Source: Propionicimonas paludicola
Lineage (GTDB): Bacteria > Actinomycetota > Actinomycetes > Propionibacteriales > Propionibacteriaceae
NCBI RefSeq assembly: GCF_002563675.1
Contig: NZ_PDJC01000001.1
Coordinates: 1,612,001-1,676,000, forward strand
DNA: 64,000 nt
Reading direction: 5' to 3'
The notes below the pieces were generated by a model. The model worked only from the letters and a program-made list of their open reading frames with translations, did not search any database and was not told the origin of the DNA. Position numbers and translations under genes: made by a program. Position 1 is the stretch's first letter; every line of letters starts with the position of its first letter. Positions 4,763 through 36,287 of this stretch are shown piece after piece.

Positions 4763-6217
4763 TCAGCGACCGCCGGTCAGCTTCTCGCGCAGGGCCTGCA
4801 GGGCCTCGTCCGAAGCCAGCGAGCCCTCAACGGTCTCGTCAGCAGCACCAGCGGAGTACGCCGCGGTGTTGGCCTCGGCGATCGTGGCCTGCACATCGGC
4901 AGCCTCGGCCTCCTCGACCTGCTTCTTGTGAGCTTCCCAACGAGCCTGAGCCTCGGCGTACTGCTGCTCCCACGCCCGCTGCTGTGCCTCGTAGCCGGGC
5001 TTCCACTCCTGGGTCTCCGGATCGAAGCCCTCGGGGTAGATGTAGTTGCCCTGCTCGTCGTAGGAGGCGGACATGCCGTACAGCGCCGGATCGAAATCGT
5101 CGGCTGCGATGTCCACACCCTCGTTGGCCTGCTTGAGGCTGAGGCTGATCCGACGACGCTCCAGGTCGATGTCGATGATCTTGACCATGACGTCGTCGTT
5201 CACAGTGACGACCTGCTCGGGGATCTCGACGTGACGCTCGGCCAGCTCGGACACGTGGACCAGGCCCTCGATGCCCTCCTCGACCCGAACGAACGCACCG
5301 AACGGCACCAGCTTGGTGACCTTGCCGGGGACGATCTGGCCGATCTGGTGTGTCCGGGCGAAGGTCTGCCACGGATCTTCCTGGGTCGCCTTCAGCGACA
5401 GCGAGACGCGCTCGCGGTCCATGTCGACGTCCAGCACCTCGACGGTGACCTCGTCGCCGACCTCGACAACCTCGGACGGGTGGTCGATGTGCTTCCAGGA
5501 CAGCTCGGAGACGTGCACCAGGCCGTCCACGCCGCCCAGATCGACGAAGGCGCCGAAGTTGACGATCGAGGAGACGACACCCTTGCGGATCTGGCCCTTG
5601 GTGAGCTGGTTGAGGAAGGTGTGACGCACCTCGGACTGGGTCTGCTCGAGCCACGCACGGCGGGACAGGACCACGTTGTTGCGGTTCTTGTCCAGCTCGA
5701 TGATCTTGGCCTCGAGCTCCATGCCGACGTACGGCTGCAGGTCGCGCACCCGGCGCATCTCCACCAGCGAAGCGGGCAGGAAGCCACGCAGGCCGATGTC
5801 GATGATCAGGCCGCCCTTGACCACCTCGATGACGCGGCCGGTGACCACACCGTCCTCTTCCTTGACCTTCTCGATCGTGCCCCAGGCGCGCTCGTACTGA
5901 GCCCGCTTCTTGGACAGGATGAGCCGGCCTTCCTTGTCCTCCTTGGTCTGAACCAGGGCCTCGATCACATCGCCCACGGAGACCACGTCGAACGGGTCCA
6001 CATCGTGCTTGATGGAGAGTTCCTTGGAGGGGATGACGCCTTCGGTCTTGTAGCCGATGTCGAGGAGAACCTCGTCCCGGTCGACCTTGACGACGGTCCC
6101 GGTGACGATGTCACCGTCATTGAAGTACTTGATGGTCGCGTCGACCGCTGCGAGGAATGCCTCGGGCGAACCGAGGTCGTCAACTGCGACGATGGCTGCC
6201 TCGTGAGTTGAGGTCAT
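4763..6217 (-). CDS. rpsA: 30S ribosomal protein S1
   Basis: 484 residues with four S1 (OB-fold) RNA-binding repeats at roughly residues 35-105, 125-190, 205-275 and 290-360, followed by an acidic, Gln/Glu-rich tail with several Tyr residues. S1 brings mRNA to the 30S subunit; the four-repeat form is normal in actinobacteria. The tail residues DPALYGMSASYDEQGNYIYP and WKPGYEAQQRAWEQQYAEAQ are characteristic of actinobacterial S1. I chose the ATG at 6217 (protein begins MTSTHEAAIV) because GGAG lies just upstream and family members start here; the frame is open further upstream but without a ribosome site. It has its own promoter and terminator. Confidence 0.97.
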   Translation of the reverse strand: MTSTHEAAIVAVDDLGSPEAFLAAVDATIKYFNDGDIVTGTVVKVDRDEVLLDIGYKTEGVIPSKELSIKHDVDPFDVVSVGDVIEALVQTKEDKEGRLILSKKRAQYERAWGTIEKVKEEDGVVTGRVIEVVKGGLIIDIGLRGFLPASLVEMRRVRDLQPYVGMELEAKIIELDKNRNNVVLSRRAWLEQTQSEVRHTFLNQLTKGQIRKGVVSSIVNFGAFVDLGGVDGLVHVSELSWKHIDHPSEVVEVGDEVTVEVLDVDMDRERVSLSLKATQEDPWQTFARTHQIGQIVPGKVTKLVPFGAFVRVEEGIEGLVHVSELAERHVEIPEQVVTVNDDVMVKIIDIDLERRRISLSLKQANEGVDIAADDFDPALYGMSASYDEQGNYIYPEGFDPETQEWKPGYEAQQRAWEQQYAEAQARWEAHKKQVEEAEAADVQATIAEANTAAYSAGAADETVEGSLASDEALQALREKLTGGR

Positions 6218-31150: not shown

Positions 31151-33022
31151 TCAGGGCTCGATCGGCAGCTTCGGAACCTTGCCGGTCGATTGCGGGACTC
31201 CATAGCGAGCCAGGGCGAGCGCCATGATGTCGCGGTAGGCAGGTCCGGCCACCGACTGGCCCGAGGAACCACGGCGCGGATGATCGATCACGACGTACGC
31301 CACGATCTGCGGATCCTCGACCGGCCCGACCCCGATGGTCGAGGTGACCAGGCCGGTGGACTTCCCGGTCTTCGGGTCGAGCTTCTGCGAGGTTCCGGTC
31401 TTGGCGCCGGTCCGGTAGCCGGGGATGTCGAAGGTGTGCGCCCTGGTGTGCTGCACCATGGCCTCCATCATCGACACCACCTCGGCCGAAGTCTGCTCCG
31501 AGACGACGCGGCGCGGCTCTCCGGTCAGCAGGTTCTCCGAGGTGCCGTCGGCCAGAGCGCGGGACTTGAGCAGGCGCGGCGGGTTGTAGACCCCACCGTT
31601 GGCGATGCCGGCCACGGCAGCTGCCTGCTGGATCAGCGTCACCGAGACCGCGCTACCACCGAAGGCCAGACCGTCACGGCTGTAGTCAGGCATGTCGGCC
31701 GGCGGCAGGACGCCCTTCGACTCACCGGGCAGGCCGATCCCGGTCTTCTGGCCGAGGCCGAAGCTCACGTAGTAGTCGTGCAACGCCTGCTTGGTGGACT
31801 TGCGAGCCAGCTCGATGGTCCCCACATTGGACGACTTGGCCAGCACGCCACGCGCCAGCAGGGTCAACGTGCCGTGATCCCAGGCGTCACTGACGTACTT
31901 GTCGCCGGACTTGATCTTCCCGGGGACCTTCACGACATCGTCCGCACGGACCAAACCCTGATCCAGCAGCGCGGCGAAGGTGAGCGCCTTCTGCACCGAT
32001 CCCGGGGTGTACGGCGTGGTCACGGCCCGGTTCTGCAAGTCCTTGGCATCGGCGTCACCGGGGGTGTTCGCATCGAAAGTCGGGTAGTTGGCCAGGGCCA
32101 GCACTTCGCCGGTCTTGACGTTCATCACGATCGCCATCCCGGAGTTGGCATCGGTCTTGCGGACCCGGTCGCCGAGGATCTGCTGGACTTCCCACTGCAG
32201 CCCGGCGTCGATGGTCAGCTGGTAGTCCAGCCCGTTCACGGCAGGCTGCAGCACGTTGGTGCCCAGCGGGATCTTCCCGTTCGGCGAGTTCTCGTAGATC
32301 TCCTTGCCGTCCTTGCCGGCCAGTTGGGAGTTCAGCACCAGTTCCAGGCCGCCACCACCGTCGCCGGCTTCATTGACGAAGCCCAGGACGTTCGCGGCCA
32401 GAGTCTTGTTCGGGTAGCGCCGGGTCGGGTGGCTCTCCTTGAACAGTCCCAGCAGCCCGGCGTCCGATACCGCCTGATTGAGTTCGCGGAAAACCGCAGC
32501 CGGCACCTGCTTGACCAGGATCTGGTAGCGGCTCCCAGCCTTGGTGAGCTTCGGCAGATAGCCGTCCACCGAGCCGCCCAGCCGGGTAGCCAGCAACTGG
32601 GCGAGCTGTTGCGGCGCCGCCGCGGCGACCTGACGGTCCTTGTCGGTCATCTGATCGGGGCTGAGCTTGCCGTTGGTCATGATCGCCAACGGATCGGCGA
32701 TCACCCACACCGTGTCCTCGGTGAAGGCCAGCACCTCGCCATTGCGGTCGGTCAGTTCGCCACGGAACGCCGGAAGGTCGCGGGTCACCGTGATCTGGCT
32801 GGCCGCCTCGGCCGCGACGGTGTCGGCATCGATGGCCTGCACCTGGACGGCGCGGCCGGCCGCCATCGAGAAGATCACAGCGATCCCGATCAACAGCGCC
32901 CGCAGCCGGGTCACCGAGCTGACCACAGGCCGCTTGCGGGTGGTCGGACGCTTGGCCGGCTTGGCCTGCTTGGCGGGCCGAGCCTCCCGAGCCAGGAAGA
33001 ACCGATCAAGAGGCCGCGACAT
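31151..33022 (-). CDS. ftsI: Septal class B penicillin-binding protein (FtsI/PBP3)
   Basis: 623 residues. A basic cytoplasmic N-terminus and one transmembrane helix (about 38-60) precede a PBP dimerisation domain (about 75-230) and a transpeptidase domain (about 270-610). The active-site triad is complete: SxxK in PGSVQKAL near residue 318, SxN in SSNVGTIEL near 385 and KTG in GAKTGTSQK near 545. FtsI cross-links septal peptidoglycan with FtsW. No PASTA repeats are present. The ATG overlaps the ftsL stop as TGATG. Confidence 0.97.
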   Translation of the reverse strand: MSRPLDRFFLAREARPAKQAKPAKRPTTRKRPVVSSVTRLRALLIGIAVIFSMAAGRAVQVQAIDADTVAAEAASQITVTRDLPAFRGELTDRNGEVLAFTEDTVWVIADPLAIMTNGKLSPDQMTDKDRQVAAAAPQQLAQLLATRLGGSVDGYLPKLTKAGSRYQILVKQVPAAVFRELNQAVSDAGLLGLFKESHPTRRYPNKTLAANVLGFVNEAGDGGGGLELVLNSQLAGKDGKEIYENSPNGKIPLGTNVLQPAVNGLDYQLTIDAGLQWEVQQILGDRVRKTDANSGMAIVMNVKTGEVLALANYPTFDANTPGDADAKDLQNRAVTTPYTPGSVQKALTFAALLDQGLVRADDVVKVPGKIKSGDKYVSDAWDHGTLTLLARGVLAKSSNVGTIELARKSTKQALHDYYVSFGLGQKTGIGLPGESKGVLPPADMPDYSRDGLAFGGSAVSVTLIQQAAAVAGIANGGVYNPPRLLKSRALADGTSENLLTGEPRRVVSEQTSAEVVSMMEAMVQHTRAHTFDIPGYRTGAKTGTSQKLDPKTGKSTGLVTSTIGVGPVEDPQIVAYVVIDHPRRGSSGQSVAGPAYRDIMALALARYGVPQSTGKVPKLPIEP

Positions 33023-33627
33023 CAGCCACGCCCCGTGGTGTCTGCCTGGGGGGCTCCGCCGGTCTGACCTCCGGCCGCGGCCTGGGCGTCCGCTTCGGCC
33101 TGGGCCTGCGCCTGAGCCGCCTTCGCGTCCGCCTTCGCCTTACGCGCGGCTTCTGCCTTCGCCTTGCGGTCCGCCTCGGCCTTGTCCATGGCCGCGACCT
33201 GCGCGGCGACCTGCTCATCGGTCAGGTAACGGATCGAGGGAACCTCGATGCCACTGACCGCCGACGCCTTGCCGATCACGTCCCCGTCATCGAGTCGCAA
33301 GTTGGCCGAGACCGGGTTGGGACGCATTCCCAACGACTGCGCAGCCACGGCCAGGCTCTGCACCGAGCGCTTGTCGGCAACGGCCGCCTGCAGCCCGGAG
33401 ACCTTCGTAGCCAGTACGGCTGCCTGGTGCTGCCGGTCCTGCACCACGAACGCCTGGCTCTGCAGGGCCGTGGTCAACACCAGAATGCCGACCATGCCGA
33501 GAGCGAGTAGTCCCGCGACCACGGCGACGAACGGGATCGTGGCCAGACTGGAGGCCGACTGCGGGACCGGGCGCAGCCTCGGTCGGCGGCGTTCCGGAGT
33601 CGGACGAGGGGCGAGTTGGGCGGTCAT
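33022..33627 (-). CDS. ftsL: FtsL-like division protein with a long Ala/Lys tail
   Basis: 201 residues. A Pro/Arg-rich cytoplasmic segment, one transmembrane helix (about 27-52) and a short coiled coil with QAAVLATKVSGLQAAVADKR match FtsL in size and position between rsmH and ftsI. FtsL with FtsQ and an FtsB-type partner activates FtsWI. The unusual part is the C-terminal 60-65 residues, a highly charged, repetitive Ala/Lys/Glu/Gln stretch (KAEADRKAKAEAARKAKADA) that would lie outside the membrane. Sequence conservation is low in this family, so the name rests on topology and context. Both ends overlap neighbours (ATGA and TGATG). Confidence 0.85.
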   Translation of the reverse strand: MTAQLAPRPTPERRRPRLRPVPQSASSLATIPFVAVVAGLLALGMVGILVLTTALQSQAFVVQDRQHQAAVLATKVSGLQAAVADKRSVQSLAVAAQSLGMRPNPVSANLRLDDGDVIGKASAVSGIEVPSIRYLTDEQVAAQVAAMDKAEADRKAKAEAARKAKADAKAAQAQAQAEADAQAAAGGQTGGAPQADTTGRG

Positions 33628-34589
33628 CGGGCCTCCTCCTGCTTTCTGGCTAGGGCGCGCAGCCGGACCGGCTTGGCACGCGAGTTGAGTGCGATCTCGG
33701 CGTCCGAGGCTTGTTCGGCGCCGCGAGTGAGCAGAGTGAAGTTCGCGGCATAGCCGACCGGGACGGACGGGACGCCGACCGGCACCCGATCCGAGCTCGC
33801 TTGGGCGAAGACCCGCTTGACCAGTCGGTCCTCGCCGGAGTGATAGGCCAGCACGACCAGGCGGCCACCGGGGGCAAGGGCGTCCAGGGCGGCCGGGAGC
33901 ACCTTGGCCAACGAGTCGAGCTCGGCATTGACCGCGATCCGCAGTGCCTGGAAGGTCCGCTTGGCCGGGTGTCCCCCGGTCTGTCGGGCCGCCATTGGGA
34001 TGGCATCGGTGACCACCCGCACCAGGTCCGCCGAGCTGTGCAGTGGACGGGCCGCGACGATCCGGTCGGCGATCCGCCGGGCGAACCGCTCATCGGCGTA
34101 GTCACGCAGGATGCGGGCGATCTGGTCGGCCGACCAGGTGTTGACGATGACCTCGGCGGTGAGCTCTTGCTCCTGGTTCATCCGCATGTCCAGTGGCGCG
34201 TCGGTCGCATAGGCGAAGCCGCGGCTGGTGTCGTCGATCTGCAGCGATGACAGACCTAGATCCAGCAGGATCGCCTGGACTTTCGGACGTCCGGCCGCAG
34301 CCAGGACGTCCGGCAGTTCGTGGTAGATCGCCTGGTGAAGCTCGACCCGCGAGCCGAAACCGGCCAGCCGGGCGCCGGCCAGGGCCAGCGCATGCCGATC
34401 CCGGTCGATCCCGATGCAGCTCGCCTGGGGCGCCGCCTCCAGCATGGCGGCCGCATGGCCGCCCAAGCCCAGGGTGCCGTCCACGTACACCGAGCCGGGC
34501 TCGGCCAGGGCCGGGACCAACAACTCGACGACACGCTCCAACAGCACCGGATGGTGCTGAGGGGCGACGCTGCCGCCGGCTTCGCTCAT
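33624..34589 (-). CDS. rsmH: 16S rRNA (cytosine(1402)-N4)-methyltransferase
   Basis: 321 residues. RsmH (formerly MraW) methylates N4 of C1402 in 16S rRNA, fine-tuning the ribosomal P site. The SAM-binding segment VDGTLGLGGHAAAMLEA, the conserved HQAIYHELPDVL and ILLDLGLSSLQID, the PLDMRMNQ segment and the C-terminal AYHSGEDRLVKRVF are present. It lies 35 bases behind a large hairpin in the mraZ-rsmH interval and is coupled to ftsL through an ATGA overlap. Confidence 0.97.
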   Translation of the reverse strand: MSEAGGSVAPQHHPVLLERVVELLVPALAEPGSVYVDGTLGLGGHAAAMLEAAPQASCIGIDRDRHALALAGARLAGFGSRVELHQAIYHELPDVLAAAGRPKVQAILLDLGLSSLQIDDTSRGFAYATDAPLDMRMNQEQELTAEVIVNTWSADQIARILRDYADERFARRIADRIVAARPLHSSADLVRVVTDAIPMAARQTGGHPAKRTFQALRIAVNAELDSLAKVLPAALDALAPGGRLVVLAYHSGEDRLVKRVFAQASSDRVPVGVPSVPVGYAANFTLLTRGAEQASDAEIALNSRAKPVRLRALARKQEEAR

Positions 34590-34622
34590 CTCGACCCTGC
34601 CTGTCCGCTCTGCCTGGTTGCT

Positions 34623-34723
34623 GGTTCGTGCGTCGTGGTTTCAATCCGCGGTCTCCGCTCCTGGCACCGGGGAAGGTGCGCCAGGAGGGTCTGCACGCGG
34701 ATTGAAGCCGCCACGCGCGAACC
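34623..34723 (-). ncRNA. Extended RNA hairpin in the mraZ-rsmH interval (candidate mraW RNA motif)
   Basis: A roughly 101-nt imperfect inverted repeat fills the space between mraZ and rsmH. Outermost GGTTCG (34623-34628) pairs with CGAACC (34718-34723); CGTGG (34634-34638) pairs with CCACG (34711-34715); the central arm TTCAATCCGCG (34640-34650) pairs perfectly with 34696-34706; and an inner stem CTCCTGG plus CACC (34658-34668) pairs with GGTG and CCAGGAG (34675-34678, 34681-34687) around a six-base loop. An RNA motif named mraW is known from actinobacterial leaders of this gene; identity with it is inferred from position and is not verified. Confidence 0.65.
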
Positions 34724-34735
34724 GTCCTTCGGTGG

Positions 34736-35164
34736 TCAGCCCACCGAGGGGGTTCCCTCATCCAAGGCCGCGAAGGCCTCCTCCTGAGTCGCCGAGTACT
34801 CCGCCCAGGTCGCCGCATCCCACACTTCGAGGCGGTTGAAGGCCCCGATCACGACGATCTCCTTGGTCAGGCCCGCGTAGGCCCGGAGCGGCAGCGGGAC
34901 GGTCACCCGGCCCTGGCTGTCCGGCAACTCGTCCGAGGCACCCGAGGCCACCATCCGCTGGTAGTCGCGCACTCCTCGAACAGTGGAAGGTCCGGTCGCC
35001 GCATTCGCCACCTCGGCCAGGAACGCCTCGGTCGGCCATACGGCCAGACAGCGATCCTGCGCACGGGTGATGACCAGGCCGGATGCCAGCTGCTCGCGGA
35101 ACTTCGCAGGCAGAAAGAACCGTCCCTTGTCGTCGAGTTTGGGGGTGTAGGTGCCCAGAAACAT
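34736..35164 (-). CDS. mraZ: MraZ transcriptional regulator
   Basis: 142 residues with two SpoVT/AbrB-like repeats: MFLGTYTPKLDDKGRFFLPAKFRE at the N-terminus (shown here only as its first and key residues, Asp11-Lys13-Gly14-Arg15) and DSQGRVTVPLPLRAYAGL in the second half. MraZ forms rings and represses the dcw operon by binding GTGGG-type repeats before its own gene. The ATG at 35164 is preceded by GGGGAGTGGG; upstream open frame is not homologous. Four regularly spaced boxes of the expected kind lie at 35189-35224. Confidence 0.97.
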   Translation of the reverse strand: MFLGTYTPKLDDKGRFFLPAKFREQLASGLVITRAQDRCLAVWPTEAFLAEVANAATGPSTVRGVRDYQRMVASGASDELPDSQGRVTVPLPLRAYAGLTKEIVVIGAFNRLEVWDAATWAEYSATQEEAFAALDEGTPSVG

Positions 35165-35188
35165 GGTGCCCACTCCCCTTTCCCTTTC

Positions 35189-35224
35189 CTCCACTTGGCC
35201 CCACAGTACTCCACTTTCCCCCAC
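35189..35224 (-). promoter_or_regulatory. MraZ operator: four GTGGRG boxes at 10-bp intervals
   Basis: On the minus strand GTGGGG, GTGGAG, GTGGGG and GTGGAG occur at exactly 10-bp spacing (forward-strand CCAC begins at 35191, 35201, 35211 and 35221), 27-60 bases before the mraZ ATG. Known MraZ boxes are TGGG/GTGG repeats of this period, so this is the probable autoregulatory site. The alternation A/G in position five is regular. Confidence 0.8.
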
Positions 35225-35280
35225 CGAGGTCGCTTTTTGATGAGTAAATCCACACGCCCCCACAACCACCGATCGCCGGT

Positions 35281-35286
35281 TAGGCT
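35281..35286 (+). promoter_or_regulatory. Possible -10 box for the moxR operon
   Basis: TAGGCT on the plus strand, 35 bases before the moxR GTG and in the 157-base divergent gap with mraZ. No clear -35 hexamer. The sequence matches the -10 box of rpsA. Confidence 0.4.
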
Positions 35287-35321
35287 GGGCACGGTCCGGC
35301 ACCAAAGACGACAGGGGCGAA

Positions 35322-36287
<966 letters not shown>

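Follow-up and report, generated by a model that had tools for sequence, protein, structure and literature searches.

The mraW RNA between mraZ and rsmH of Propionicimonas paludicola and its relatives: a conserved CUUCCCC loop as a candidate RNA operator of the division operon

The hairpin encoded on the minus strand between mraZ and rsmH in the window (the whole stretch of 64,000 nt of Propionicimonas paludicola DNA that was analysed, in whose numbering positions are given) is the Rfam mraW RNA, RF01746, and it is a real RNA structure. The window copy is an ordinary member of the mraW RNA family, with no departure from RF01746; it is the family-level evidence, and not this copy, that narrows an old open question and makes the function of the mraW RNA testable. 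The element is found across the actinobacterial class ahead of genes for division and the cell wall and, in the loci examined, its CUUCCCC loop is invariant outside Streptomyces, on a stem that varies with compensation. We propose, with a confidence somewhat short of an even chance, that the hairpin is a cis RNA operator of the division and cell-wall operon, bound by a putative protein and acting at a distance. The features of the locus are as follows.

34736..35164, minus strand: mraZ, the upstream gene; open reading frame, start placed by our choice at the ATG of MFLGTY; Pfam MraZ, E 1.1e-34
33624..34589, minus strand: rsmH (mraW), the downstream gene; open reading frame, Pfam PF01795, E 2.4e-99
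33022..33627, minus strand: ftsL; open reading frame, NCBIfam FtsL_Actino, 57.3 bits (cut-off 55)
31151..33022, minus strand: ftsI-type transpeptidase gene; open reading frame, Pfam Transpeptidase, E 3.5e-65
34616..34726, minus strand: full match to the mraW RNA model RF01746; cmscan 56.7 bits (gathering 50)
34623..34723, minus strand: the hairpin itself; fold z -5.1, 0/200 shuffles as good
34640..34706, minus strand: 11-bp middle stem and its interior, arms 34706-34696 and 34650-34640; fold and outer-stem covariation in 88 loci
34655..34689, minus strand: apical hairpin, a bulged stem of 12 pairs capped by a 10-nt loop; fold, custom model R1 (41.7 bits) and covariation
34669..34675, minus strand: loop motif CUUCCCC; Rfam alignment and fold, motif in 89/89 de-duplicated loci selected by the covariance model (CM)
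34639, minus strand: conserved A opposite C 34707, a C-A mismatch of the outer stem; position pair in 88 loci
35189..35224, minus strand: four GTGGRG repeats, one every 10 bp, ahead of mraZ; read from the sequence

The four genes lie on the minus strand in the order mraZ, rsmH, ftsL, ftsI, and the mraZ-rsmH gap of the window measures 146 nt. Folding of the minus strand gave stems of 6, 4 (+1+2), 11 and 12 pairs, the last of them bulged, with the 10-nt loop ACCUUCCCCG; the minimum free energy of the hairpin (34723-34623) is -65.6 kcal/mol, against a mean of -46.4 kcal/mol for 200 shuffles (z -5.1). A preliminary description of this DNA had correctly located the hairpin at 34623..34723 in the mraZ-rsmH interval, ending 33 bases before rsmH (34589). 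The four nested stems that it gave, of 6, 5, 11 and 7+4 bp, come close to the computed ones, the 6- and 11-bp stems standing as described and the other two being replaced by 4 (+1+2) and 12 pairs. Its naming of the actinobacterial mraW RNA was borne out by the covariance-model scan, in which the minus strand scored 56.7 bits, with a cut-off of 50, compared to 31.3 bits for the plus strand; this was the only RF01746 match reported in the 3.26-Mb genome. The window copy has the same place, CUUCCCC loop and consensus as RF01746. Specifically, the score is not below the gathering threshold, the flanking genes are mraZ and rsmH (Pfam MraZ and Methyltransf_5), and the nested stems that carry the loop covary. 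When the plus strand was folded, a second short hairpin beside the mraW RNA, at 34724-34751, covered the stop codon of mraZ.

Compensatory changes in the stems, to which the preliminary description had pointed as the mark of a conserved structure in relatives, were found in both parts of the hairpin. In the outer stem, 16 of 17 pairs show pairing-keeping changes on both sides across 88 de-duplicated loci (alignment A1, which holds 88 of 89 loci, the tandem locus L105 being omitted); 0/500 shuffles were as covarying as the observed alignment, and slid controls were far lower. In the apical stem, 7 of 8 pairs change on both sides and 0/500 shuffles match the observed covariation in 35 sequences, these being the rows, out of 47, with the best pairing in a single register, which biases this control towards structure; the 47 rows came from 52 chosen, five with poor pairing having been omitted. 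An alignment-free control, in which the arms of each locus were paired with those of other loci, gave a comparable picture: a locus's own arms outpaired foreign ones in 105 of 110 apical cases, pre-filtered to a stem of -7 kcal/mol or better except for 11 added unfiltered, and in 88 of 89 outer cases, selected by the Rfam model. The apical set of 110 consists of 103 sites, minus four that were mis-picked, plus 11 others, and five were dropped in the later alignment. On the sense strand, G-U pairs outnumber A-C pairs by 111 to 30, or by 63 to 30 when one column pair supplying 48 is removed; since this is the pattern expected of the strand that folds, we take the mRNA as the folded molecule. At the conserved A of the outer stem, the position pair reads C-A in 49 loci, U-A in 33 and C-G in 0 of 88, and the mismatch is therefore conserved too.

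The Rfam model matches 137 of the 196 genomes of the order and 255 of the 394 genomes of the class. These counts are underestimates, because a CUUCCCC hairpin lies in the mraZ-rsmH gap in 24 of 24 MraZ-bearing loci from class genomes without an Rfam match, a non-random draw from 139 such genomes with the MraZ place among the matches listed; an Rfam scan of these 24 loci at E 0.01 returned no match. Loci with weak Rfam matches carry the hairpin as well (7/7). The 120 loci selected by the covariance model contain rsmH in 120 cases, mraZ (by tblastn) in 119 and CUUCCCC in 120; having been chosen by the Rfam model, they are a less fair test of the loop than the 24 loci without a match. The sole CM-selected locus without mraZ, L078, pointed to the MraZ-less genomes described below. 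As to a trans regulon of the inner hairpin, this candidate was rejected: of 57 genomes from the family to which P. paludicola belongs, G123 alone has another exact match to the inner-hairpin pattern, and the exact matches compared (e.g. in G092, G039, G168, G123, G104 and G001) fall inside the Rfam match.

The loop, and in some lineages the whole hairpin, has been multiplied. Of 89 loci, 13 have a second CUUCCC within 53 nt on the 3' side of the loop, in 11 cases 20-24 nt after the loop start; shuffles gave 0.6 on average (largest 4), and the 5' side gave 2. Among 81 genomes from the family that includes G474, 11 carry two complete hairpins in tandem, 36-41 nt apart; these 11 are distributed over the genera g174 (4/4), g191 (3/3), g100 (2/4) and g183 (2/4). 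Recurring CUUCCC motifs and doubled hairpins are thus as expected of a binding module. Two stem-borne CUUCCCC copies per mraZ-rsmH gap were also seen in L105, L166, L176 and L195, the last three lying outside the family of G474.

The MraZ protein is unnecessary for keeping the mraW element. In family f22, six genera besides genus g47 lack MraZ and ten have it, two weak MraZ matches (G701 and G723, of g206 and g195) being set aside as false. Hairpin and loop were present in the rsmH leaders of 28/28 genomes from MraZ-bearing genera and of 22/22 genomes examined from the six MraZ-less genera other than g47; the leaders of G707 (no RsmH match), G647 (Ns) and G280 (no anchor) were omitted. A control of rsmH output relative to mraZ, as the preliminary description proposed, would be an mraZ-linked role, and these 22 leaders oppose it. 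The large genus g47 has no credible MraZ either, weak single-stretch matches in 4 of 41 genomes being treated as false, and we take it as Streptomyces because the best 80 named relatives of the RsmH of G427, a g47 genome, comprise 79 Streptomyces and one Kitasatospora aureofaciens. Here the outer stem together with CUUCCCC is kept in at most 13 of 45 leaders, the outer stem only in 20 and neither signature in 12, and for the 80 named leaders the same classes hold at most 27, 33 and 20; the 13/45 and 27/80 are upper figures, as a retained CUUCCCC can be a second copy (L137, L149, L291). A dependence on MraZ, as the loop loss in Streptomyces might imply, was rejected, the six other MraZ-less genera keeping the loop in 22/22 cases. 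Since Streptomyces often drops the loop and keeps the outer stem (20/45; 33/80), the latter may have a role independent of the loop. In addition, RsmH identities place MraZ-bearing genera both nearer to G427 and farther from it than MraZ-less ones, which suggests that mraZ was lost more than once.

A further placement came from R1, a 38-position model of the apical hairpin, which matched G766, a genome from a different class within the phylum, at 39.5 bits. In this genome (L351/L353), where the genes were checked, mraZ and rsmH abut. The interval between ftsL and ftsI holds a hairpin of the form GGUCCCC...CUUCCCC...GGGGACC, and the 3' end of ftsL contains another strong CUUCCCC hairpin:

L353 4759-4796 and about 4880-4915, minus strand: two CUUCCCC hairpins at the ftsL-ftsI junction; fold and motif

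The two strong hairpins of L353 compare with a mean of 0.003 in 300 dinucleotide shuffles of the 8-kb stretch. In 247 loci the sequence extends 300 nt or more past rsmH; L353 alone has hairpins of such strength there, and six weaker matches, of -14 to -20 kcal/mol, occurred elsewhere in this set. An Rfam scan of this out-of-class locus, L353, gave no match, and the ftsL-ftsI placement is that of one genome. The phylum-wide R1 search was limited to 17 scored candidates per genome and overlooked known copies, and its 11/396 matches are uninformative on absence. The other out-of-class R1 match, G952, was rejected: it shows no match to rsmH or mraZ in 2.3 kb and looks like coding sequence.

The distance from the loop to the conserved N-terminus of RsmH ranges from 77 to 407 nt, with a median of 139 nt, in 116 MraZ-bearing loci; this spread, together with the out-of-class hairpins located after rsmH, argues against a simple blocking of the rsmH start. 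No terminator-like site was found in the window region 34400-35400. According to the operator reading, the CUUCCCC loop on its G-C stem would be the binding site of a putative RNA-binding protein, and binding would alter the expression of downstream genes from a long transcript, through an effect on elongation of transcription or on processing of the mRNA and not through occlusion of the rsmH start. This reading is suggested by the loop being invariant outside Streptomyces, by its being a repeatable module tied to one operon in the genomes searched, and by the variable distance (77-407 nt), with no terminator-like site in the window region and no overall above-chance pairing with the mraZ or rsmH starts. 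MraZ-less genera that keep the element, Streptomyces with and without the loop, tandem copies and the case ahead of ftsI are natural experiments that point to a loop-binding factor. A wider version is more doubtful, namely that the mraW RNA is an operon-level operator, a portable single or tandem CUUCCCC module read by a putative conserved actinobacterial RNA-binding protein; control would then extend over transcription or processing of the whole operon, from a site in either the mraZ-rsmH or the ftsL-ftsI interval, and would be relaxed, among the genera seen here, in Streptomyces alone. Division is dispensable for growth in Streptomyces.

Against the operator reading count the frequent loss of the loop in Streptomyces, the single genome on which the ftsL-ftsI placement depends, and the position of rsmH, which follows the hairpin everywhere but in L353. 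This last point also fits autogenous control, whereby RsmH, an RNA-binding enzyme, would bind the hairpin and repress its own operon. The operon would then be regulated by the product of the adjacent gene, an arrangement seen in many ribosomal-protein leaders, and rsmH does adjoin the hairpin in 120/120 CM-selected loci and in the MraZ-less leaders examined. We nevertheless hold autogenous control to be distinctly unlikely: the hairpins of L353, one genome, come after rsmH and before ftsI, so that the element is not always upstream, the distance to the start codon is very variable, and none of 65 conserved RsmH columns was changed in 25 loop-less Streptomyces sequences, a weak test for residues tracking loop loss. 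A nuclease site, at which RNase III or another enzyme would cut the duplex, separate mraZ from the rsmH-fts mRNA and set their stabilities, appears unlikely, although less so than the autogenous circuit. In C. glutamicum the mraZ mRNA is reported to be cleaved by RNase III (Maeda 2016) and the accessible text of PMC3890552 places a primary 5' end of mraW inside the motif, while for M. tuberculosis the corresponding passages of PMC3526491 describe a candidate RNA, assigned by the authors to the 5' UTR of Rv2165c, with bands at 60 and 30 nt. Together, as far as these passages go, such data are compatible with processing. On the other hand, Maeda 2016, by its title, locates the cut within the coding region of mraZ, the 5' ends from C. 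glutamicum derive, in the passages cited, from a library enriched for primary ends, and RNase III alone would leave the unchanging loop and its duplication unexplained. The available part of PMC5784534 puts the mraW transcription start site of C. diphtheriae downstream of the motif, which is likewise compatible with processing. Because these corynebacterial 5' ends fall inside or just after the motif, part of the rsmH mRNA would lack an intact hairpin, and this also counts against an operator.

A metabolite sensor, an anti-RBS stem and a MraZ target are probably all poorer fits than a protein operator acting at a distance. A riboswitch, for example a sensor of peptidoglycan precursors, would suit a highly conserved cis element ahead of cell-wall genes; yet the element is one hairpin whose conserved loop is short, the window region shows nothing resembling a terminator, and the relation to the start codon is not fixed (77-407 nt in the 116 loci), all of which makes a riboswitch very unlikely. 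It is still less credible that the C-rich loop is an antisense element pairing with the G-rich ribosome-binding site of mraZ or rsmH. The leaders are indeed G-rich, and in 69 of 88 loci the loop is predicted to pair more strongly with the mraZ leader than with that of rsmH. Of the 165 rsmH leaders, 24 contain a strict heptamer (GGGGAAG, GGGGAGG or GGGGGAG); 40 shuffled sets average 13.9 such leaders and never exceed 22. Both pairings were nonetheless rejected, as pairing was better than the mean of a leader's own shuffles in only 45 of 88 loci for mraZ and in 66 of 165 for rsmH (mean z -0.01; a few mis-picked CUUCCCC sites, e.g. L074, are included in this set), and the loop persists where mraZ is absent. 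Equally improbable, and largely refuted, is a service to MraZ, with the element bound by this protein or controlling the mraZ mRNA only: mraZ stands beside it in 119/120 loci and Streptomyces, without MraZ, often loses the loop, but loop and stem are kept in all 22 genomes examined from the six other MraZ-less genera.

The mraW RNA was described in 2010 (Weinberg 2010, PMC2864571), and a 2017 paper on fungal RNAs calls its function unknown in the passage concerned (PMC5640933). Our literature search, covering titles, abstract openings and text passages and leaving subscription papers largely outside, brought up no mechanism for it. Relative to RF01746 as it appears in the accessible text of PMC2864571, the tandem hairpins, the second CUUCCC, the MraZ-less leaders and the ftsL-ftsI placement are additions made here. 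The family-level points that we count as new are the loop in loci missed by Rfam, its multiplication, the independence from MraZ, the placement between ftsL and ftsI and the null result for pairing. As regards known systems, ribosomal-protein leaders and phage boxB/nut sites are protein-operator hairpins. The mraW RNA resembles autogenous ribosomal-protein leaders and boxB/nut sites in being a small cis hairpin, repeatable and with a conserved loop, a likeness of form. With 6C RNA, an actinobacterial RNA with a C-rich loop, and with other such RNAs of this phylum it shares a C-rich loop on a G-C stem; unlike the 6C-type RNAs, it was not seen as a trans RNA, and its pairing with G-rich start regions is overall no better than that of shuffles.

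Finally, the region upstream of mraZ bears on the history of the locus. The GTGGRG repeats of the window include two overlapping exact pattern matches at 35191-35224, where 0.03 would be expected with one mismatch allowed, and we take them to be probable MraZ boxes. Judging from the sequence, they are a probable MraZ operator over mraZ's own promoter. A TANNNT-like -10 element (TACTGT) upstream of mraZ is overlapped by the four repeats (35189-35224, minus strand). In Streptomyces, TAAAGTGNCGCG, accompanied by GTG repeats at 10-bp spacing, occurs within 420 nt upstream of the RsmH match in 72 of the 80 named leaders (L271-L350), and likely represents a former mraZ promoter that retains traces of MraZ boxes; given such an upstream relic, the Streptomyces hairpin would lie in the 5' UTR of rsmH. 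The same relic was also noted upstream of the rsmH leader in L131-L160. Divergent from mraZ in the window is a gene for a MoxR-type AAA ATPase (Pfam AAA_3), at 35322-36287 on the plus strand.
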